Source of the DNA: Spirochaetes bacterium RBG_16_67_19
Lineage (GTDB): Bacteria; Spirochaetota; Spirochaetia; SZUA-6; DRHE01
Direction of reading: 5' to 3'
Length of the DNA stretch: 11,707 nucleotides
NCBI GenBank assembly: GCA_001829505.1
Contig: MIBK01000237.1
Location: 15,893-27,599 of the forward strand
The notes under the pieces were generated by a model. The model was given only the letters and a program-made list of their open reading frames with translations. It made no database searches and had not been told where the DNA came from. The position numbers and the translations under genes are program-made. Each line of letters opens with the position of its first letter. Position 1 is the stretch's first letter. This document shows, piece after piece, positions 2,545-11,212 of the stretch.

Positions 2545-2976
2545 GTGGACACGGACATCGACTCCCTGGACTACGGCTCGGCCCGCGAGTACGTGCTGGC
2601 CTTCCTCACGGCCCTGAAGCAGGCCGAAAGGGAGCGGGCTGTGGCCGAGGAGGAGTTGGTCCACTGGCTGCGGCGGGCAAAGGCAGCCGATAGCCGCGGC
2701 GAGCCCCAGCTGAAGAAGCTGGCCGCCGCCCGGGCGGCGGAGCTGCGGGAGGCCGCCACGCGCTTCGGCGCCGAGGAACAGGTGCTGCGGCGCAAGACGG
2801 CCGTGCTGCGGAAGAAGCTCCTGGTGCTGCGCGACAAGGCCTCCTTCGCCGTTGACGCCGACGACCTGCTGGACCAGCTCCGCCTGCAGGCCGGCGAGCC
2901 GGGCACCCTGGACCAGGAGATGAAGGAGCTGGAAGCCCGGGCGGCCCTGGAGGCGCTGAAAAGGAAAAAGGCTTGA
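2545..2976 (+). CDS. Small charged, coiled-coil-like protein of unknown function
   Basis: I do not recognise this 143-residue protein. It has no signal peptide or membrane segment, so it is probably cytoplasmic. It is almost wholly alpha-helical in composition: alternating Lys/Arg/Glu with regularly spaced Leu and Ala, especially residues 24-95, which look like a coiled-coil hairpin. A second acidic-then-basic helix follows (about 103-143) and ends in KRKKA. The start is GTG at 2545, because TGA lies two codons upstream in frame; an out-of-frame ATG at 2534 is not used. A GAGAA lies immediately before the start, too close to be a normal ribosome binding site. Its TGA overlaps the next gene's TTG start, so the two are probably translationally coupled. 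Codon use matches the neighbours, which supports a real gene. Confidence 0.75.
   Translation: MDTDIDSLDYGSAREYVLAFLTALKQAERERAVAEEELVHWLRRAKAADSRGEPQLKKLAAARAAELREAATRFGAEEQVLRRKTAVLRKKLLVLRDKASFAVDADDLLDQLRLQAGEPGTLDQEMKELEARAALEALKRKKA
2961..2965 (+). promoter_or_regulatory. Ribosome binding site that supports the TTG start of the GDPD gene
   Basis: AAGGA sits 7 bases before TTG at 2973, inside the end of the upstream gene. It supports the rare start codon. The next in-frame ATG or GTG would fall inside or after the HRG catalytic motif. Confidence 0.6.
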
Positions 2977-3761
2977 GGGGCGGTTCCGGCCCGCTGGCCG
3001 ATCCCCGCGGCCCGCCCCTGCTGTTCGGTCACCGGGGTTACTCCGCCCTGGCCCCGGAGAATACCCTGGCCGCTTTTCAGGCCCTGGTGGAGCACGGCAT
3101 TCCGGGGGCGGAGCTGGACGTGCAGCTCGCCGCCGACGGACAGCCGGTGGTCATCCACGATTTCACCCTGGAGCGCACCGCGGGCCTGGCGGCGCGCGTG
3201 CGGGACGTCCCGCTCTCGGCGATCCGCGAGCTGGACGCCGGGCAGTGGCGGGGAGAGCAGTTCCGCGGCCAGAAGGTCCCGCTGCTGGAGGAGGTGTTCG
3301 CCGCCTTCGGTGAGCGCCTGTACTTCGACGTGGAGCTGAAGTGGGACCTGAAGGCCGAGGGCGGGCTGGAGCAGAAGGTGGTGCAGGCCATCCGGCGCCA
3401 CGGACTCCAGCGGCGCTGCCTGCTTTCCTCCTTCAACCCCTACTGCCTGCTGCGCGCGCGGCGCCTGGCCCCGGAGCTGCCCACGGCGCACATCTGGGCC
3501 GACACCCCCGAGCTGCCCTTCCTGCTGCGCCACGGGGCCGCCGCCGTGCTGCTGCCCGGCCCGCTGGCCAAGCCTCAGGGCCGGCGCATCCGGGCCTGGA
3601 ACGCGGCCCTGTTCCGCCTGCTGGGCAGCCGCCTCATAGCTTGGACCGTGGACGAGCCGCAGGAAGCCCGGCGCCTGCTGGACCTGGGAGTGGGCGGCCT
3701 GATCTCCAACGACCCCGGGCGCCTCGCGGCCGCGGGTCTGTTCGAAAGGAGCCTGACATGA
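2973..3761 (+). CDS. Glycerophosphodiester phosphodiesterase (UgpQ-like)
   Basis: This enzyme family hydrolyses glycerophosphodiesters, the deacylation products of phospholipids, to sn-glycerol 3-phosphate and an alcohol. The 262-residue protein has the complete GDPD TIM-barrel signature: GHRGYSALAPENT (19-31) with His20, Arg21 and Glu29; AELDVQ (46-51) with metal ligands Glu47 and Asp49; VIHD (60-63) with the second catalytic His62; FDVELK (118-123) with Glu121; and the C-terminal WTVDEPQEARRLLDLGVGGLISNDP region split across 224-248. There is no signal peptide, so it is the short cytoplasmic UgpQ type rather than the exported lipoprotein GlpQ type. It starts at TTG inside the stop of the coiled-coil gene and ends inside the start of the DinB-like gene (ATGA). 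The substrate is not shown by the sequence; phospholipid turnover is the family role. Confidence 0.93.
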   Translation: MRGGSGPLADPRGPPLLFGHRGYSALAPENTLAAFQALVEHGIPGAELDVQLAADGQPVVIHDFTLERTAGLAARVRDVPLSAIRELDAGQWRGEQFRGQKVPLLEEVFAAFGERLYFDVELKWDLKAEGGLEQKVVQAIRRHGLQRRCLLSSFNPYCLLRARRLAPELPTAHIWADTPELPFLLRHGAAAVLLPGPLAKPQGRRIRAWNAALFRLLGSRLIAWTVDEPQEARRLLDLGVGGLISNDPGRLAAAGLFERSLT

Positions 3762-4231
3762 GTCGAAGGCATCTGCTGGAAGCGTTGAAGCTCAATCCGG
3801 TGATCCTGAAGGATTTCGTGGCCGACATTCCCGAAGCGGCCCTGGACCGGCGCCGGGGGGAGGGCTACTGGACGATCTACGAGCACCTGCTGCACCTGGT
3901 TGAAACCCAGGAGGTGATCCTGGGGCGCCTGGAGCTGATCCGGGACCAGGCCAAGCCCGTGATCACTCCCTATGCGCCCAAGCGCCTGGCGGCCGGGGAG
4001 CGGCCCTCCGCGCGCGAGCTGGTCGAGCAGTTCGCCGGCTGGCGCGAGCGGCAGGTGCGGCTCATCGAGGCGGCCCCCGAGCCGCTGTGGAGCAAGCCCG
4101 CCGAGCATCCGGAATACGAAAGCTACGGTTTCCGGATCCTGGTGCGCCACATCCTGGTGCACGACGGGCTGCATTTCGCCCGCATCGAGGACCTGTGGCT
4201 GTTCAAGGACGAGTTCCTCAGCCCGCTTTGA
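3758..4231 (+). CDS. DinB-like four-helix metal-binding protein
   Basis: The 157-residue protein resembles the DinB/YfiT-like four-helix bundle superfamily, members of which are metal-dependent transferases (for example of low-molecular-weight thiols) or have no known reaction. The support is a conserved layout rather than strong identity. One helix near the N-terminus carries His43 and His46 (WTIYEHLLHLVETQE, 38-52), and a late helix carries His131, His135 and His139 (VRHILVHDGLHFARIEDL, 129-146). This matches the usual three-His metal site with one ligand early and two late. No signal peptide is present. The start is ATG at 3758, overlapping the upstream TGA, with AAAGGAG six bases before it. 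It is the last gene of the operon; 39 bases separate it from the convergent lipoprotein gene and no clear terminator fits there. The specific reaction is unknown. Confidence 0.75.
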   Translation: MSRRHLLEALKLNPVILKDFVADIPEAALDRRRGEGYWTIYEHLLHLVETQEVILGRLELIRDQAKPVITPYAPKRLAAGERPSARELVEQFAGWRERQVRLIEAAPEPLWSKPAEHPEYESYGFRILVRHILVHDGLHFARIEDLWLFKDEFLSPL

Positions 4232-4270
4232 CTCACAGGGGGCTTCCCGGCGCGGATAGCCTCGACGCGG
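4232..4270. other. Convergent gap between the plus-strand operon and the envelope operon
   Basis: This 39-base gap must serve the 3' ends of two operons. The only structure seen is a short inverted repeat, TAGCC (4257-4261) and GGCTA (4269-4273), with a 7-base loop; it overlaps the minus-strand TAG stop. It lacks a T-tract on either strand, so I do not call it a terminator. Confidence 0.4.
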
Positions 4271-5764
4271 CTACCGCAACTGGTTGGCGATAGCCTGACC
4301 CAGGTCCTCGCCCAGCTTTTTGAAAGCCGTGGCCAGGGCGGCGGAGGCGCTGGAGCCCTGGGCCCGCTTGGTCTTGTTCACGGCCAGCAGGACTTTGCCC
4401 GAGGCCAGCTCCACCACCTTCACCGCGCCGCTGACCTGGATGAGGATGGTCTGGCCTTCCTGCACGGTTTCCGAAATGCGGGCGGTGCCGAAGATGGCCC
4501 GTTCCACCTGGCCCTTGTATCCCGCGGCCAGGGCGGCGATCACCTGGTTGTCGGGGCGGCCGGCGATTTCCGGGGCGGTGACCGGCAGCGACACCACCTT
4601 GAAGCCGGCCTTGCCCAGCTCGGCCAGCAGCCCGGAGGAGGTTTCGCTCATGGTGATGGGGTTGCCCGTGGCGTCCAGGTCGAACACGGCGATGCCGGTG
4701 GGGATGGTGCCGGCCAGGGACAGCGACTCGTAGGCGAAACGCACGCTCTTGGTGCGGGCCAGCTCCTCCATGGCCTCCACCTGGGCGTAGAGCCGGTCCG
4801 GAACGTCGGCCAGGGACTCCAGGGCCTCGTCCAGGTCCAGGGCCATGGTCAGGGTTTCGGCCCCCACGGACTCGGGGGGCGGAGGCTGGAAGGAGAGCCT
4901 CCCGTCCGGCCCGCTCTTGGCCTGCTGCGAGCGCGTGGAGCTCCTGCCCGAGGCCCGCATCTCCTTGTACGAAACGCGCAGCGCGGCGCCGGCGATGCCC
5001 GGGTCGGAGCCGGCGGATCCGGCCACGACTTTGAGCTGGAAGCCGGCGGGGAAGCCCTGGCCCACGTGCACCTTCAGGTTGTCGTTTAGCTTCACGAGGC
5101 CGATGCGGCGGACCGCCTCGCGGGCCTGGTTCATGTTGCGCTCGAACTTGATCTCCGCGTTCTCCAGATCCGACTTGAAGGCCGCCGCGGCCGCCTCCAG
5201 GTAGCGCAGCGTGGCCTGGTACAGCTCGCCCCGGCCTTCCAGCTCCCGGCCCTCCGCTTCCGGCCCGGAGATGGCCTGGACCTTCTCGCGGAAAATCTCC
5301 TCCAGCCGGCGCCTCTCCTTGGCCAGTTCGGTCTTGTTGTAGCGGGCCAGCAGGTACACCCCGGTGCGGCCCTCCCGCCGGCTCACCCAGCGCTCGGCGA
5401 TTTCCAGGCCCACCACCCTGCCGGCGGAGGTGGACTTGAGGGTCTGCACCACGTCCGCCTGGTAGGACTCCAGCGACGCCCTGGCGGTGGCGGTGGTTTC
5501 GGAAGCGATGCGCACCCCCAGGTAGCGCATGATCTCGTCGATCAGGGCCCCGCGGGCGAAATCCTCCCCCTCGGCCATGCTGCCGGTCTTGGATTCCCCG
5601 GAACCGACGAAGTACATGTATTGGGCGTCGGCCTCCGGCGGGTCCAGCACCCAGGCCGGCGGCGCCTCCTGGGCGGAGACGGGCTTGGGCGCGGAGCCGC
5701 AGGCGAACAGGAACGCCGCGGCCGCGGCCACCGCAAGAATCCTCAGAGGGCGGATGGTTTTCAT
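4271..5764 (-). CDS. Large LPP20-like lipoprotein with a C-terminal FlgO/CsgG-like domain
   Basis: This is a 497-residue lipoprotein. The signal peptide ends at LFAC (Cys22), after a Lys/Arg start and an Ala-rich core. The next region (about 35-150) looks LPP20-like: PPAWVLDPP, then YFVGSGES, then an Ala-rich helix with a YLGVRI strand and ALARYNK-type repeats of the family. A charged helix (150-220) follows. Residues about 228-315 look like a beta-sandwich of the kind that decorates envelope proteins. The C-terminal part (about 355-497) has the alternating FDLDATGN, LLAELGKAGFKVV, TILIQVSGAVKVVELASGKVLL pattern of TolB-N/CsgG/FlgO-like domains. It is the last gene of the four-gene operon. 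AGGAG lies six bases before the ATG, behind a strong GC hairpin. The domain calls rest on pattern, not alignment. A structural role in the outer-membrane periplasmic face is inference. Confidence 0.85.
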   Translation of the reverse strand: MKTIRPLRILAVAAAAAFLFACGSAPKPVSAQEAPPAWVLDPPEADAQYMYFVGSGESKTGSMAEGEDFARGALIDEIMRYLGVRIASETTATARASLESYQADVVQTLKSTSAGRVVGLEIAERWVSRREGRTGVYLLARYNKTELAKERRRLEEIFREKVQAISGPEAEGRELEGRGELYQATLRYLEAAAAAFKSDLENAEIKFERNMNQAREAVRRIGLVKLNDNLKVHVGQGFPAGFQLKVVAGSAGSDPGIAGAALRVSYKEMRASGRSSTRSQQAKSGPDGRLSFQPPPPESVGAETLTMALDLDEALESLADVPDRLYAQVEAMEELARTKSVRFAYESLSLAGTIPTGIAVFDLDATGNPITMSETSSGLLAELGKAGFKVVSLPVTAPEIAGRPDNQVIAALAAGYKGQVERAIFGTARISETVQEGQTILIQVSGAVKVVELASGKVLLAVNKTKRAQGSSASAALATAFKKLGEDLGQAIANQLR

Positions 5765-5777
5765 CAGATGCTCCTGG

Positions 5778-5812
5778 AAAAAGATGTGGGCGGGGGGGCC
5801 GCCCCCCCGCCC
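5778..5812 (-). terminator. Intercistronic 11-bp all-GC hairpin with U-tract (attenuator-like)
   Basis: Between the third and fourth genes of the envelope operon lies a perfect inverted repeat: an 11-base arm at 5788-5798 and its exact complement at 5802-5812, with a 3-base loop. Every pair is G-C. On the transcribed (minus) strand the stem is followed by five spacer bases and then five U (5782-5778), just before the AGGAG of the last gene. The spacer makes it a poor classical terminator. It therefore looks like a leaky terminator/attenuator or an mRNA-stabilising or processing stem. Confidence 0.6.
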
Positions 5813-5820
5813 GGCGTGTC

Positions 5821-6486
5821 TTACATGCCTTCGGAGAAAAGCTCCTTGACCCGGTCGCGGGCGGTCTGCTCCTCTTCGGTCTTCGGCTTGGCCTTGCCGC
5901 TCTGCGCGTCCAGAGCCCGCTGGATGGCCGCGTCGATCTGCTCGCGGGGCACCGTGTACAGCAGCAGGTAGCGGTAGACCTTGTCGGTCGGCTTGCCGGC
6001 GTCGTCATAGTACTGCTGGTGGACCCAGAAGTCCGCCTTCTGGCGGGCCCCGGCGTACTCGGCCACGGCCAGGATCTTGGCCACCTCTTCCATGTAGGTT
6101 TCCACCATGTCCTTGTCGCCGATCTGGGCGCCGACGAACTTGTTCATCACCCGGGTGGAGACCATGCGGGCCACCTCGGTGGCCGCGGTGAAGCTGCGGG
6201 TCCAGGCCTTCACCCCCTCCAGGTCCTTGCCGGTCTGCTCGAACTTGAACACGTACAGGCCCTTGTAGTCCCGCTCCCCTTCGATGTTCTCCTGCTCCTC
6301 GAAAATCCAGTTGGGCACGTCCATGCCGAAGGCGGTGCCTTCGTGCTCGATGGTCTTGGGCGGGTAGACCTTGGGCTCGACCTTGATCTCGCCCTTGGGC
6401 TCCTTGGCCTTGGGCCCGCCCGCGCAGCCCACGAAGGCGAAAGCGACCATGGCGATCACCGCTACGATGATCCAAAGTTTTTTCAT
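5821..6486 (-). CDS. LPP20-like lipoprotein, short form
   Basis: This 221-residue protein starts with a classic lipoprotein signal peptide ending in FVGC (Cys21). Phe at -3 is unusual in enterobacteria but accepted in spirochaetal lipoboxes. A Lys/Glu/Pro-rich linker (25-45) leads into a single domain with VPNWIFEEQE (57-66), where LPP20-type proteins have a PxWV motif. A long helix (about 93-150) and a YRYLLLYTVPREQIDAAIQRAL strand-helix unit follow (171-192). The last 25 residues are charged and probably extended. The ATG at 6486 has AAGGAG eight bases upstream. It lies between two larger lipoprotein genes, with GC hairpins on both flanks. By size and style it is the nearest match to FlgP-like LPP20 proteins, but the relation is weak by eye and its function is unknown. 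Confidence 0.82.
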   Translation of the reverse strand: MKKLWIIVAVIAMVAFAFVGCAGGPKAKEPKGEIKVEPKVYPPKTIEHEGTAFGMDVPNWIFEEQENIEGERDYKGLYVFKFEQTGKDLEGVKAWTRSFTAATEVARMVSTRVMNKFVGAQIGDKDMVETYMEEVAKILAVAEYAGARQKADFWVHQQYYDDAGKPTDKVYRYLLLYTVPREQIDAAIQRALDAQSGKAKPKTEEEQTARDRVKELFSEGM

Positions 6487-6514
6487 CGAACTTCTCCTTG
6501 GTTAGAGATGGATA

Positions 6515-6531
6515 GCGGGGCGACGCCCCGC
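6515..6531 (-). repeat. Perfect 7-bp GC hairpin just after the second envelope gene
   Basis: GCGGGGC (6515-6521) and GCCCCGC (6525-6531) are exact complements with a 3-base loop. The hairpin follows the stop codon of the 439-residue lipoprotein gene by one base. No T-tract follows, so it is more likely an mRNA 3'-end protecting or processing stem than a terminator. The ribosome binding site of the next gene lies 20 bases further on. Confidence 0.6.
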
Positions 6532-6532
6532 A

Positions 6533-7852
6533 TCAGTTGCCGGTATTGAAGGTGACACTCTTGCCCCGCAGCACGACCTGGTACATATCCTCCAGGCCGG
6601 GAACCCCCTCGGCCACGTCCAGCACCTTGTCGGCCAGGTCCTCCAGGGAGCCCAGGATGAAGACGCTGTACCGGGCCTCCTCGGCGGTCTGGCTCACGGT
6701 CAGCACGTCGCGCGCCTGCCGGCGCAGCTTGCGCCGGAAATCGGACATCGCCCTGGCGTCGGAGCTGCCCTGCACGACCAGCTCGTACTTGATCCCCCCG
6801 GCCAGCGCCTTGGCCATATAGGCCCTGGCCTGTTCCAGCACGATGGGCATGGCCTTGTACACGCTGGTCTGCAGCGCGTTGATGCGCGCGGCCTGCTCCG
6901 AGGCGGTGGAGAAGGTGCGCGGGCTGTTCCAGGGCTGGGAGCCCAGCAGGCGGCCGGTGGAGGCCTCGAAGCCCTTCAGGGTGATGTTGGCCTGCCCGTA
7001 GTACTTGCCCGCGGAGCTCTCCCCGGTGGTGCGCCCGTCGATCTCCACGTACACGTCGGCGTTGAGCTTCTGGGCGATCCACTGGATCATGGAGATCGAC
7101 TCGCCGGTCTCCTCCTCGTACAAGCGCTGCTGGTCCTTCTTGAGCTTCTCCACCTGCTCCAGGTCGATGGCCTCCAGGGCGTTGGAGGTCAGGTACTCGT
7201 TGGCGATGCCCACGGCGGCCTTCATATAGAAGGGATCCTCCGTGGTCTGATCGTGGAAGTAGACCATGTAGGTCATCTGGCTCAAGTAACGGGCGATGAA
7301 GCGCTTCTCCTCAGGCGTGGGCTCCGGTCCGCTTTCCTCGGGTACCTCGGCCTCGGCGGACTCAAGCTGGACCACCCCCTCGGCGGTAGTGGCCTGGGCG
7401 CCGGCGGCCGCCGCGGCACCTCCAACCGATTCCCCGCCCAGCAGGCCGTTGGCCTTCAGGGTGTTCTCCACCGCCCGCATGTTCACCGCCACGCGGATCT
7501 CGAACAAGTAGTCCTCGCCGACCTTGTCCTTGCGCAGGGTCTCCAGGCTCTCCTTCTTGATGTAGGCGTTGGGGTTGGAGGTGTTGTACAGCACGGAGCC
7601 CAGCTTTTCCTGGTTGGCCCGCTCGCTGCCCACCCCGATCAGCTCAATCACCCCCTTGCGCACCGCGTCCATGATGGCGAAGCTGCGGGCGTTGAGCATG
7701 GAGGGGCTCTGGCCCGCGCCTTCGTACACCTTCTCGGCGGGCATGGCCGGGGCCTTGGCAGCGGGCGCGGCGGCCTGAGGTGCGGAGGCGCAGGCGGCCA
7801 GGAAAAGCAGGGCGAGCAGCGCCGCGCCGGCGGCAAACAGGCTTCTCTTCAC
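6533..7852 (-). CDS. Lipoprotein with FlgT-like N-terminal region and a TolB/CsgG-like middle domain
   Basis: This is a 439-residue lipoprotein with a textbook lipobox, LAAC (Cys21). An Ala/Pro-rich tether (22-40) is followed by a region (about 40-137) with KVYEGAGQSPSMLNARSFAI and a helical run. This pattern, in which a strand with GxG is followed by AR-xx-AI-xDA and a helix, is that of FlgT N-terminal-like domains. An Ala/Gly and Glu-rich linker (140-180) separates it from a second domain (about 183-350), with MIQWIAQKLNADVYVEIDG and then YYGQANITLKGFEASTG (284-300), typical of TolB-N/CsgG-like folds. A third alpha/beta unit (353-439) ends in a strand near YQVVLRGKSVTF. The start is GTG at 7852, fixed by a strong ribosome binding site that overlaps the previous stop. 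These assignments are pattern-based. Anchoring to the outer membrane is inferred. Confidence 0.85.
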   Translation of the reverse strand: MKRSLFAAGAALLALLFLAACASAPQAAAPAAKAPAMPAEKVYEGAGQSPSMLNARSFAIMDAVRKGVIELIGVGSERANQEKLGSVLYNTSNPNAYIKKESLETLRKDKVGEDYLFEIRVAVNMRAVENTLKANGLLGGESVGGAAAAAGAQATTAEGVVQLESAEAEVPEESGPEPTPEEKRFIARYLSQMTYMVYFHDQTTEDPFYMKAAVGIANEYLTSNALEAIDLEQVEKLKKDQQRLYEEETGESISMIQWIAQKLNADVYVEIDGRTTGESSAGKYYGQANITLKGFEASTGRLLGSQPWNSPRTFSTASEQAARINALQTSVYKAMPIVLEQARAYMAKALAGGIKYELVVQGSSDARAMSDFRRKLRRQARDVLTVSQTAEEARYSVFILGSLEDLADKVLDVAEGVPGLEDMYQVVLRGKSVTFNTGN

Positions 7853-7858
7853 GGTACT

Positions 7859-7869
7859 CCCTCCTCCTT
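7859..7869 (-). promoter_or_regulatory. Ribosome binding site overlapping the upstream stop codon
   Basis: On the minus strand the TAA stop of the first envelope gene runs straight into a purine block, AAGGAGGAGGG, which ends six bases before GTG at 7852. It justifies the GTG start and implies that ribosomes finishing the first gene re-initiate on the second. Unlike the two later gaps, this 15-base gap has no room for a hairpin. Confidence 0.7.
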
Positions 7870-9202
7870 ACAGCTTGATCGTCAGTCCCGCGCCGATAAA
7901 CAGGCCGTCGTAGTCCGGGAACAGGAACTCGGCGTCGAAGAAATACTTGGTCGGCACCAGCGAGAACCAGTTCAGGTAGCCCACGTCCAGGGTGAAACGC
8001 ATCTTCTTGTTGAACAGGTAGGCCAGGCTCAGGCCCGCCTGCCCGCCCACGTGGGTGAGGGCAAACTTCTCATCATCCGGTACGTCCGCGTACCAGAGGA
8101 AAGCGCCCCCCACGCCCGCCGCGACGGAGGGCATCACGGTGAGCCGGCCCAGGTACAGGACGTACTCCCCGCCGACGTACAGATTCAAGGGGAGGGCCGC
8201 CAGGATATTGGCGATCAGCGGCACCTCCAGGCCGAAGATCGGCCGGAAGCCGTAGAAGCCGCGCGAGATGGACTGCTTGAAACCGATCAGGCCGGTGATC
8301 TTGCCCGGGTCGTACAGCAACCCGCTGGCCACGTGCAGGTAGGGGGTGGTTTCCACGCCCAGCAGCGGGAACTCCCGCAGCTGGTCCCCCTCCTGGGGCC
8401 TGGGCCGGGCGTACAGCACCTTGCCCACCGAGACCTCGTCGCTGACCTCCTTGATCACCAGCAGGCCGTTCTCCGTGGTCAGGGTCTTGCCGGAATCCAG
8501 CACGCGGCTGGCCACCAGCACGAACTCGTCGCCCACCTTGATGCCCATGTCCCGGCCCAGCTCCAGGATCACCTCGCCGCCGTGGACCTCCAGCACCCCG
8601 GTCTTGAGCTGGAACTCGGGGATCTTGCGGATCTCGTAGGTCAGCAGGATGGCGATGCCGTCCAGGGCGCTGCGGGCCGCCCCTTGCGGGCTGTCCTCCG
8701 TTCCTTCGGTCTCCACGAAGGCCTGGGCGAAGGTGGTGCCCTGCTCCACGTTGATGAAGCTGAAGGAGGTCTTGAGGGCCACGTGGAAATCCCCGTCGTC
8801 CTTGACCTCCAGCACGTAGCTGGCCACGGAGGGCACCACCACGATGAAGGAGCCCACCAGCCGCTCGAAGTCCGACTGGGTGAAGAACTCGCGGCCCATC
8901 TGCACCGCCTCGGGCATCTCGGCGCGCACTTCCTTGAAGGCCTTGATCCTGTCGATGAACTGGCTGAGGTCGCCGGGTTCCAGGCGCTGGGTCATGCCCA
9001 GGACGTTGAAACGGCCGATGTTGACGAACACCCCGCGGATTTCCTCGTCGATTCCGCCCAGGACCGAGTCGGGAATGTCCCACTGGTAGTAGCTCAGCTT
9101 GAAAACCGCGATGTCCTTCTTTTGGGACACCTGCTGGGCTATCGCCAGCGGGGCGACCGCCAGGACCAGCAGCAGGAGCGCGACGACTCGCCTGGACTTC
9201 AT
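7868..9202 (-). CDS. Exported protein with TolB/FlgT-like periplasmic region and C-terminal beta-barrel-like domain
   Basis: This is a 444-residue protein with a Sec signal peptide (residues 1-22, cleavage after AIA, then QQV) and no lipobox Cys. Residues about 29-195 start with DIAVFKLSYYQ and continue through GRFNVLGM, a strand order seen in TolB-N/CsgG-like domains. Residues about 198-268 form a small beta unit (LEVHGGEVILELGRDMGIKVGDEFVLV, in pieces at 204-230, then VIKEVSDEVSVGKVLYA), typical of the SH3-like C-terminal domain of FlgT. From about 286 to 444 the sequence alternates hydrophobic and polar residues with aromatic girdles (FYGFRPIFGLEVPL, LNLYVGGEYVLYLG, GYLNWFSLVP) and ends in GLTIKL, which suggests an 8-stranded outer-membrane barrel. 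It is first in the operon, with a strong GGGAGGTGA before ATG. A membrane-spanning anchor for the three lipoproteins is a plausible role, unproven. Confidence 0.88.
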   Translation of the reverse strand: MKSRRVVALLLLVLAVAPLAIAQQVSQKKDIAVFKLSYYQWDIPDSVLGGIDEEIRGVFVNIGRFNVLGMTQRLEPGDLSQFIDRIKAFKEVRAEMPEAVQMGREFFTQSDFERLVGSFIVVVPSVASYVLEVKDDGDFHVALKTSFSFINVEQGTTFAQAFVETEGTEDSPQGAARSALDGIAILLTYEIRKIPEFQLKTGVLEVHGGEVILELGRDMGIKVGDEFVLVASRVLDSGKTLTTENGLLVIKEVSDEVSVGKVLYARPRPQEGDQLREFPLLGVETTPYLHVASGLLYDPGKITGLIGFKQSISRGFYGFRPIFGLEVPLIANILAALPLNLYVGGEYVLYLGRLTVMPSVAAGVGGAFLWYADVPDDEKFALTHVGGQAGLSLAYLFNKKMRFTLDVGYLNWFSLVPTKYFFDAEFLFPDYDGLFIGAGLTIKL

Positions 9203-9300: not shown

Positions 9301-9328
9301 TTGAAAGCACCGCCCGCTGTGGTATTAT
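9301..9328 (+). promoter_or_regulatory. Strong sigma-70-like promoter of the large lipoprotein gene
   Basis: A -35 box TTGAAA (9301-9306, five of six) is followed after 16 bases by a -10 box TATTAT (9323-9328, five of six). Transcription should start near 9335, only two to five bases before the ATG at 9338. A short AGGT-type purine run (9332-9335) lies at the start site itself, so the mRNA would carry little or no Shine-Dalgarno sequence. Confidence 0.65.
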
Positions 9329-9337
9329 TGTAGGTAG

Positions 9338-11212
9338 ATGCGCGCCTATCCCGGCCTGGCCGCGATCCTTCTGATTCTCCTCGCGGTTTCCTGCTCGGAT
9401 ATGTCCGTGTTCGGCCCCCAGGACGCGGTCCCGGCCAGCATCGAGGTACGCTCCCTGCGGGACGGCGGCCTGGTGCAGGTCGGCGACCCGCTGGCCTACG
9501 TGGTGCACGCGGAGCGGCAGCCCGGGGAGGACCTGGTGCTGGAGGCCACGCTCCTGGACGCCGCCGGCGGCGAAGCCTGGTCCGGCACGCTGGCCTCGCC
9601 GCAGCTGGAGGAAGAGCTGAAGCTCAAGCCTCCCGGCCTGCCCGCCGGGCTGTACCGCCTGAAGCTGGTGCTGACCCGGGAATCCGGGGCCACCGTGGAG
9701 AAGGAGCTCTCCTTCTTCTACGTGACCGGGGATTTCGCCATCGAGGGCATCAGCTCCTTCCCGCCGACCATCCAGCCGGAGAGCCGCATCCTGCTGAAGG
9801 CCGACCTGCGCTATCCGGACGGCTTCGACCCCTACGTGCGCTGGACCCAGGACGGCAAGCCACTTGGGAGCGGCCGGGTCAGCGAGGGCCTGGCCCAGGT
9901 GGGCTGGCAGGCTCCAAAGGAAGGCGTCTACCCCGTGCAGGTGGAGCTGTTTCCCACCCCCCCCCAGGATGGCCGGGACTTCCGCTTCACCTCCCCGCTG
10001 CTGGCCACCGGCAAGCTGTATGTCACCCCTTCGGCCGCAGCGGCCTCCGAGGAGCTGGGACCCCTGGAATCCTATTACCTGCTGTTCCATTTCGACGGCA
10101 GCCTGCGCGACGCGGCTTCGCCGGAGGCGGCGGAAGCGGCCGCTTTCGGGGCGGCGGAAGTTTCCAAGGCCGGACTGCGCCTGACCGAAAACGCCGGAGT
10201 CCGCTACCCGCGCCTGCTGCTGCCGGCCGCCGGCGGGCAGCCGGCCCCCTGCACCCTGACCCTGCGGCTGGAAGTGGCGGAGGGCGCCGCGGGCCGCGAC
10301 CTGCTGGCCACCGAGTCCTCCGACCGGGCCTTCCGGTTGAAGCTCGCCCTGGACCAGGAAGGGCGGCCCTGGGCGGAGCTGCTGCTGCCCACCGGCGCCG
10401 CCATGCGCCTGCCCTCGGGCATGCCCCCGCTGGCCCCCGGCCGCACCTACCGCCTGGACCTGTCGCTGCTGCCCGGCGCCCGCTCCCTGACCGCCATGTG
10501 GTTCCTGGACGGGCTGCAGACCTCCCTGGCCACCGTGAAGGCGGAGGGCGGCGCAATGCAGGCCGAAGGCACGACCCTGATCGGCGGGGAGAACGGCCTC
10601 CGCGGCCTGATCTCGGAGCTGGGGGTCTACTACCTGGACGAGGGCAAGCGGCCTTCCGTGGACCCGGGAATCTACCGCTGGGTCATGGAGAGGCGGCTGG
10701 GGCGGCGGCTGATCCTGGCAGAGGGCTTCGAGGGCTCCCGCCTGCCGGAGGGCTTCCAGGCGGCGCCCGAGACCGCCGCGCGCCTGTCGGGCGGCAGCCT
10801 GCGCCTGGACCCGGAGTCCGGCCTGACCCTGCCCTTCTTTGACCTGAACGCGGCCGCGTCCGGCGAGACGGTTCTGGAAATGGTCTTTGCCGCGCCCCTT
10901 CCCGCGGGCACCAGCGCCTCGCTCACCTGGGAGAGCGACGGAAAGGCCTTCCTGGACATCCTGCCGGAGGGCAAAGCCCTGGCCGCCGGGAAGGAAGCGG
11001 CCTCCTTCCCGGCGCTGACCGACACCCTGCAGCTGGAGCTGGGGGAAAAGAGCCTGGTCCTGAAGCTGCCGCCCCCCTCCGAACCGGTGCTGCTGGCCCT
11101 GCCCGCCCCTGCGCTGGGAAAGGAGCGCTGGCTCAAGCTGAGCGTGCGCAGCCCGGCCGCGGAGACGGGAGTCTCGCTCGACCGGATCCTGGCCTACTAT
11201 AAAGCCGAATAG
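9338..11212 (+). CDS. Large lipoprotein built of Ig-like and LamG/concanavalin-like beta-sandwich domains
   Basis: I do not recognise the exact family of this 624-residue protein. The signal peptide ends in LAVSC (Cys19), a loose lipobox of the spirochaetal kind. Two Ig-like units follow (about 33-130 and 131-230); the second has WTQDGKPLGSG and ends in the GVYPVQVELFP strand typical of such folds. Residues about 245-435 look like a LamG/concanavalin-type lectin fold: a LLFHFDGSLRDAA opening, GRTYRLDLSLLPG with WFLDGLQ in the middle, and LRGLISELGVYYLDEG at the end. A further beta-rich unit (460-624) has FEGSRLPEGFQ and ends DRILAYYKAE. Such lectin-like folds often bind glycans or protein partners, but no binding residues can be assigned. 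Surface or outer-membrane placement is inferred. The gene is alone, divergent from the envelope operon, and ends 7 bases from the next convergent gene. Confidence 0.87.
   Translation: MRAYPGLAAILLILLAVSCSDMSVFGPQDAVPASIEVRSLRDGGLVQVGDPLAYVVHAERQPGEDLVLEATLLDAAGGEAWSGTLASPQLEEELKLKPPGLPAGLYRLKLVLTRESGATVEKELSFFYVTGDFAIEGISSFPPTIQPESRILLKADLRYPDGFDPYVRWTQDGKPLGSGRVSEGLAQVGWQAPKEGVYPVQVELFPTPPQDGRDFRFTSPLLATGKLYVTPSAAAASEELGPLESYYLLFHFDGSLRDAASPEAAEAAAFGAAEVSKAGLRLTENAGVRYPRLLLPAAGGQPAPCTLTLRLEVAEGAAGRDLLATESSDRAFRLKLALDQEGRPWAELLLPTGAAMRLPSGMPPLAPGRTYRLDLSLLPGARSLTAMWFLDGLQTSLATVKAEGGAMQAEGTTLIGGENGLRGLISELGVYYLDEGKRPSVDPGIYRWVMERRLGRRLILAEGFEGSRLPEGFQAAPETAARLSGGSLRLDPESGLTLPFFDLNAAASGETVLEMVFAAPLPAGTSASLTWESDGKAFLDILPEGKALAAGKEAASFPALTDTLQLELGEKSLVLKLPPPSEPVLLALPAPALGKERWLKLSVRSPAAETGVSLDRILAYYKAE
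9957..9965 (+). repeat. Run of nine cytosines inside the large lipoprotein gene
   Basis: An uninterrupted C9 tract encodes part of Thr-Pro-Pro at about residues 207-209. Insertion or loss of one base would shift the frame and truncate the protein after its second Ig-like unit. It could be a slippage-prone site, though runs of C are less surprising in DNA this GC-rich. Confidence 0.7.

Follow-up and report, generated by a model that had tools for sequence, protein, structure and literature searches.

Gene content of the cluster

We analyzed a stretch of 11,707 nucleotides (hereafter, the window) from Spirochaetes bacterium RBG_16_67_19, located on contig C237 of a draft genome that is 83.7% complete, with a focus on four adjacent genes termed A, B, C, and D. 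These open reading frames (ORFs) lie on the minus strand, run from window position 9202 down to 4271, and encode proteins of 444, 439, 221, and 497 amino acids (aa), respectively. The intergenic gaps were 15 (A/B), 46 (B/C), and 56 bases (C/D). A fifth gene, E, diverges from A on the plus strand (Table 1).

Homologues of A, B, and D were searched by scoring about 8000 candidates for each gene. At E <= 0.001, we obtained 169 homologues of A (identity 96 to 48% among the best 120 of the 169), 311 of B (100 to 61% among the best 120 of the 311), and 118 of D (95 to 37%), indicating that A, B, and D are real genes. The N-terminus of A is a predicted helix that resembles a signal peptide in the structure model, and the N-termini of B, C, and D read as lipobox-like. 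Among the ORFs of relatives, a loose lipobox pattern also occurred in 21 of 28 for B, 23 of 25 for C, and 23 of 31 for D, as opposed to 2 of 29 for A. The initial annotation described one barrel-like exported protein and three lipoproteins in a four-gene cluster; the homologues, the N-termini, and a barrel predicted in A agree with that description, with export and lipidation suggested by the N-termini.

Table 1. Positions of the genes, domains, and candidate regulatory signals in the window.
Feature	Residues	Window position	Strand	Basis
Gene A, 444 aa		7868..9202	-	Pfam, structure model (pLDDT 79), FlgT/CsgG/PelC/OmpA fold matches
A, FlgT_M/CsgG/PelC-like domain	26-199	8606-9127	-	Fold matches
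A, FlgT_C SH3-like domain	200-277	8372-8605	-	Pfam in relatives, fold
A, OmpA-like 8-stranded barrel	280-444	7871-8365	-	Predicted structure
Gene B, 439 aa, putative lipoprotein		6533..7852	-	Pfam DUF6175 at residues 211-364 (25.6 bits, cut-off 23)
Gene C, 221 aa, putative lipoprotein		5821..6486	-	Homology to LPP20-like N-terminal part of D
Gene D, 497 aa, putative lipoprotein		4271..5764	-	Pfam in relatives, structure model (pLDDT 86), Foldseek
D, LPP20/SHS2-like domain	36-143	5336-5659	-	Pfam in relatives, fold
D, helices	144-219		-	Model
D, beta-sandwich, macroglobulin/invasin-like	221 to about 309		-	Model
D, TolB/CsgG/PelC/FlgT_M-like domain	349-497	4274-4720	-	Model, Foldseek
Gene E, 624 aa, putative lipoprotein	Conserved Cys19	9338..11212	+	Divergent from A here; homologues upstream of A or B elsewhere
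Candidate sigma-70-like promoter for E, TTGAAA-16-TATTAT		9301..9328	+	Consensus match only, A/E intergenic region
Terminator-like G+C hairpin, then ACATCTTTTT		5788..5812	-	Between C and D; consensus match only

Folds of the encoded proteins

A scan against NCBIfam gave nothing above cut-off, and no credible match came from sequence searches of the Protein Data Bank (PDB) in which D or one of the profiles A1, A2, and A3 served as the query (A1 being the D alignment and A3 the B alignment); fold comparison alone was effective. Structure models were made for A and D. The top PDB match of the A model was Vibrio FlgT (Foldseek E 1.5e-11), ranking above CsgG and PelC. In the model, A is FlgT-like in fold, with M and C domains that succeed each other as in FlgT (PDB 3w1e, 8z5n), followed by the barrel. 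The FlgT_C score of A in the window was 20.4 of the required 27 bits and the LPP20 score of D was 13.5 of 25.9 bits, both under the Pfam cut-off; therefore, these two assignments rest on relatives and fold. The first domain of A also resembled DUF330/PqiC and HpaA in the fold search. A differs from FlgT in that FlgT is a soluble periplasmic protein lacking a barrel, and a FlgT M-C unit fused to an OmpA-like barrel was not described in the titles or abstract openings of the literature searched.

D aligned in order with residues 1-263 of FlgT. No single chain of the cluster corresponds to the N-M-C arrangement of FlgT, as the M-like domain of A starts right after the signal-peptide-like helix and the SHS2-like domain is found in D, which also contains insertions of helices and a beta-sandwich. 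For D, PelC, HpaA, and CsgG (E 1.6e-6 to 3.9e-6) ranked above FlgT (8z5n, 4.4e-6; 3w1e, 3.3e-5) in Foldseek, fitting its last domain equally well or better, which weakens the standing of FlgT for this protein. FlgT_C was not among the top 25 of the 33 families matched by the 47 members of the D family. Although the TolB-like fold is common to A and D, hhalign found A unrelated to D or to B.

We then considered the LPP20 family, represented by Lpp20 of H. pylori (HP1456) and FlgP of C. jejuni. LPP20 exceeded the Pfam cut-off at D in 5 of the 25 genomes that carry both A and B (hereafter, carriers; G047, G126, G245, G019, and G173, the last at 25.7-25.9 bits), and was matched at E <= 0.1 by 28 of the 47 members of the D alignment. 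It was above cut-off in none of 14 control genomes, and a PF02169 search at E 0.001 missed the window's own genome. In the carrier G003, LPP20-domain matches above cut-off were also observed away from the operon (G003:C1:1517837-1519607). C was related to the N-terminal part of D (hhalign probability 97.4, E 1e-11, with the signal peptide inside the aligned stretch). Meanwhile, C of the window matched no Pfam family at E <= 0.1, and none of the 21 members of the C alignment matched LPP20. Taken together, the sequences support the assignment of C and D as LPP20-type lipoproteins. Unlike FlgP, D carries three further domains. In addition, D does have the insert that follows the SHS2 helix (residues 82-119, 38 residues, at the position of the ring-forming FlgP hairpin), but it was modeled with a low-confidence helix at 92-110 (pLDDT of the block 55-68), so that a FlgP-type beta-hairpin was not clearly visible.

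B met DUF6175 (PF19672), which was matched at E <= 0.1 by 5 of the 29 members of the B alignment; the term DUF6175 was not found in the literature searched. Comparison of B with C and D by hhalign revealed only signal-peptide and N-terminal similarity. In genome G003, B is interrupted by a TAG stop (L037:8940-10169). FlgO matched none of the four genes. The folds that had been proposed for the operon were largely borne out: FlgT-, LPP20-, and CsgG-like patterns were recovered in the structures or alignments of A, C, and D, and FlgO was not.

A proposed scaffold at the outer membrane

From these folds, we infer that A-D form an outer-membrane-anchored periplasmic scaffold of spirochaetes, perhaps a ring, that re-uses FlgT/LPP20-type folds, and we give this reading an even chance. 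The eight-stranded barrel would anchor A in the outer membrane, and its FlgT_M/CsgG/PelC-type domain may oligomerize at the inner face of that membrane; oligomerization is proposed by analogy, because the same fold builds rings in FlgT, CsgG, and PelC. The presumably acylated LPP20 proteins C and D, together with B, would pack around A as a collar, which would brace the outer membrane and extend into the periplasm.

The same folds could also belong to an outer-membrane transport or secretion complex, in which A, resembling CsgG and PelC but bearing a barrel itself, would export or display a substrate such as E or a polymer with the help of the lipoproteins. The matches to PelC, CsgG, HpaA, and PqiC/DUF330, including those that surpass FlgT for D, and the linkage of the lipoprotein gene E in some genomes are consistent with such a complex. 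In contrast, FlgT ranked first for A, no polymer biosynthesis gene set was found among the recurrent neighbours, and eight-stranded barrels have no wide pore. CsgG and PelC share the TolB-like domain fold with A and D, but A would be held by its own C-terminal barrel and D has a beta-sandwich insertion in addition to its LPP20 domain. We consider a transport role unlikely and retain the scaffold as the preferred reading.

Conservation and gene order

A contig scan with B as the query yielded 19 named loci, all of which belonged to Spirochaetota, in line with the spirochaete origin that had been suggested from the sequence; the restriction to the phylum applies to B. The order A>B>C>D was intact on one strand in 15 of the 19. 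Contig edges truncate L020 and L024, which start at or within B, as well as L023, which stops inside C; L028 reads E-A-B-D, with C not found. Among further chosen loci, L034, L035, and L036 had the order E-A-B-C-D and L033 had A-B-C-D. Genome counts were based on matches at E <= 0.001 in drafts of varying completeness, with at most six candidates per genome scored when the phylum was searched with A1, A2, and A3; thus, absences are soft. A was matched in 41, B in 31, and D in 68 of 247 phylum genomes, many of the D matches being weak or partial. B was present in 19 of the 26 genomes of the source's own order.

We also considered that the proteins may be separate lipoproteins and a stand-alone OmpA-type protein, sharing no complex and joined by co-expression only. 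A was detached from B-C-D in three genomes (G194, G063, and G245), 16 genomes had A without B and 6 had B without A, treponemes had D-like proteins without A-C, and C and D are separated by a terminator-like hairpin. These observations would fit independent proteins; however, D was present in all 25 carriers, and the gene order was kept across most of the named loci. We judge independence very improbable.

D-like lipoproteins with the LPP20 part unmatched adjoin an alanine racemase gene in L043 (7709-8776) and L049 (7602-8747), and alanine racemase relatives adjoin E in six loci (L022, L023, L028, L034, L036, and L041); L043 and L049 probably represent this locus, from which E-A-B-C have been lost. 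A lipoprotein-like protein with only the D-like C-terminal domain adjoins a recA-like gene (L032:8816-10168). A T. pallidum outer-membrane protein was considered and dropped, as the only match in the presumed T. pallidum genome was a D-like C-terminal domain elsewhere.

Relation to flagella

The initial annotation also compared the operon with flgO, flgP, and flgT of Vibrio. The Vibrio H-ring of FlgT, FlgO, and FlgP encircles the L-ring, and flgT, flgO, and flgP have consecutive locus tags in Vibrio, Shewanella, and Colwellia (PMC6375700); deletion of flgT in Vibrio results in mostly periplasmic flagella (PMC7990780). In H. pylori, HP1454 and HP1456, encoded in one operon, are described as binding FlgP and FapH, the significance of which the authors call unclear, and deletion of hp1456 left bacitracin resistance at the wild-type level (PMC11756786). 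The portion of PMC7225975 that was accessible does not mention the L-ring.

In the window's own genome, FliG and flagellar rod genes were found on other contigs (C198 and C39). FliG was present in 24 of the 25 carriers and 212 of the 222 other genomes (Fisher p = 1, phylogeny not corrected for). The FliG-lacking carrier, G047, had rod-gene matches; hence, flagellar genes occur in every one of the 25 genomes that hold A, B, and D. Since nearly the whole phylum has FliG (236 of 247 genomes), this co-occurrence is what would be expected. Moreover, 212 of the 236 FliG-bearing genomes lacked the A+B pair.

Conservation in non-flagellated relatives would have argued against a flagellar role. FliG and A were each found in 0 of the 119 genomes of one family, presumably Sphaerochaeta-like. 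An empty result of such a search proves nothing by itself; the profile used for A did match 41 of the 247 phylum genomes. Rod genes were absent in five genomes of this family, and weak matches to the LPP20 end of D were found in three of the five, implying that flagella are not a prerequisite for LPP20 lipoproteins in general. Conservation without flagella was thus not seen, but the test is weak because it covers one clade, most FliG genomes lack A+B, and the presence of the pair does not track FliG.

FlgH was matched in 2 of the 25 carriers, one being the window's own genome, and in 106 of the 222 others (Fisher p 7e-5, phylogeny not corrected for); draft gaps and divergent FlgH could account for some of the absences. 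Because the flagella are periplasmic and 23 of the 25 carriers lack a match to FlgH, the protein of the L-ring that a Vibrio-type H-ring would surround, such a ring is unlikely in most carriers. The main role of the H-ring, outer-membrane penetration, is inapplicable to periplasmic flagella. At the operon, FlgO (PF17680) had no match at E <= 1 in the 25 carriers; elsewhere in the genome, it was matched in 10 of the 25, four of them above cut-off. Off-operon FlgO matches in the carrier G031 (C1:125617-126862 and 48932-49261) scored 35.4, 27.5, and 22.6 bits (cut-off 22.6).

Pfam scans covered 40 of the 98 flank ORF slots and, separately, 10 proteins that overlapped with these in part. Recurrent flank genes were mnmE, mnmG, gidB, a small conserved ORF, GDPD, alanine racemase, and an M20 peptidase. 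The small ORF (window 2545-2976) has relatives in seven related loci, mostly beside mnmE, and matched no Pfam family above cut-off. The 40 flank ORFs belonged to housekeeping and transport families, with two exceptions, and for 10 of them no family reached E <= 1e-5. In L013, a gene on the strand of D, separated from its downstream end by 295 bases (10940-12931), encodes a protein of 664 aa with CsgG (29.9 bits, cut-off 20.8), FlgO (26.2 bits, cut-off 22.6), and VWA domains, all above cut-off. This gene favours the assignment of folds and is the nearest thing to the FlgO proposed for the operon; it was seen in one relative only, and in the window D is followed by a DinB-type gene on the other strand instead. 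In L017, a chemoreceptor gene (3195-5396; MCPsignal and HAMP) adjoins A on the opposite strand, and its cluster also takes in ORFs in L018 and L025. No flagellar family other than the L013 FlgO gene and the L017 chemoreceptor was found among the scanned flank ORFs.

These results bear on the possibility that A-D form a ring or bearing for the periplasmic flagella, situated near the motor or along the filament, guiding rotation or protecting the outer membrane, with an assembly in a position comparable to that of the H-ring (FlgT/FlgO/FlgP) or of the FapH ring. The adjacency of FlgT-like and LPP20 genes, as in flgT, flgO, and flgP elsewhere, the L013 and L017 neighbours, the flagellar genes of every carrier, and the absence of A from the FliG-less family are in keeping with this role. 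However, co-occurrence is expected in a phylum in which FliG is nearly universal, the genomes lacking both FliG and A belong to one family and represent one event at best, most FliG-bearing genomes manage without the pair, FlgH is mostly unmatched, and the scanned flank ORFs otherwise contain no flagellar family. We regard a flagellar bearing as improbable. Even less probable, in our estimation, is a more specific version in which spirochaetes, most of them without the L-ring protein, would have the FlgT/FlgP ring in a split, barrel-anchored form, with M-C carried by A and N-M by D. Lying next to the periplasmic flagella at the outer membrane, this ring would serve as a bearing and shield that membrane from the rotating filament. 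The flagellar reading of the operon was not supported, and the envelope scaffold remains the preferred reading.

Gene E and regulatory signals

Cys19 of E was invariant in 10 sequences, and E of the window matched no Pfam family above cut-off. A homologue of E lies directly upstream of A on the same strand in seven loci (L021, L022, L023, L028, L034, L035, and L036); in L041 and L048, it precedes B instead, again on the same strand. E is an occasional partner, because it was upstream in just 4 of the 19 named loci (L021, L022, L023, and L028). The presence of a fifth gene in some relatives corrects the four-gene picture. The promoter scan found one site against 0.3 expected, and terminator-like sites in the scanned stretch numbered 5 against 3.1 expected in shuffles. 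The candidate hairpin between C and D likewise corrects the picture of a single operon; with its T-rich tail, it may lower the expression of D relative to A-C.

Interpretation

No operon of this make-up was described in the titles or abstract openings of the literature searched. The cluster most likely encodes a general envelope scaffold rather than a dedicated motor part, and not a Vibrio H-ring. Several of the above observations weigh against this interpretation: the TolB-like fold is common to proteins of other kinds, PelC, HpaA, and CsgG surpass FlgT for D, the first domain of A has additional fold relatives, the FlgP-type hairpin is unclear, A is occasionally detached, all carriers have flagellar genes, and a chemoreceptor gene, suggestive of motility, adjoins A in one locus. 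The spirochaete flagellar collar (FlbB and FlcA-D) is likewise a periplasmic scaffold of spirochaetes (PMC7693769 and PMC13023049); unlike the proposed A-D assembly, with which it is compared here by description, it is associated with the inner membrane (PMC7990780).

FlgT-type and LPP20-type folds are thus joined in one conserved cluster with no sign of a flagellar ring context, a combination relevant to the question of whether general outer-membrane scaffolds were the source of the H-ring folds. In addition, the cluster names a conserved, uncharacterized outer-membrane system of spirochaetes that is open to direct genetic testing.

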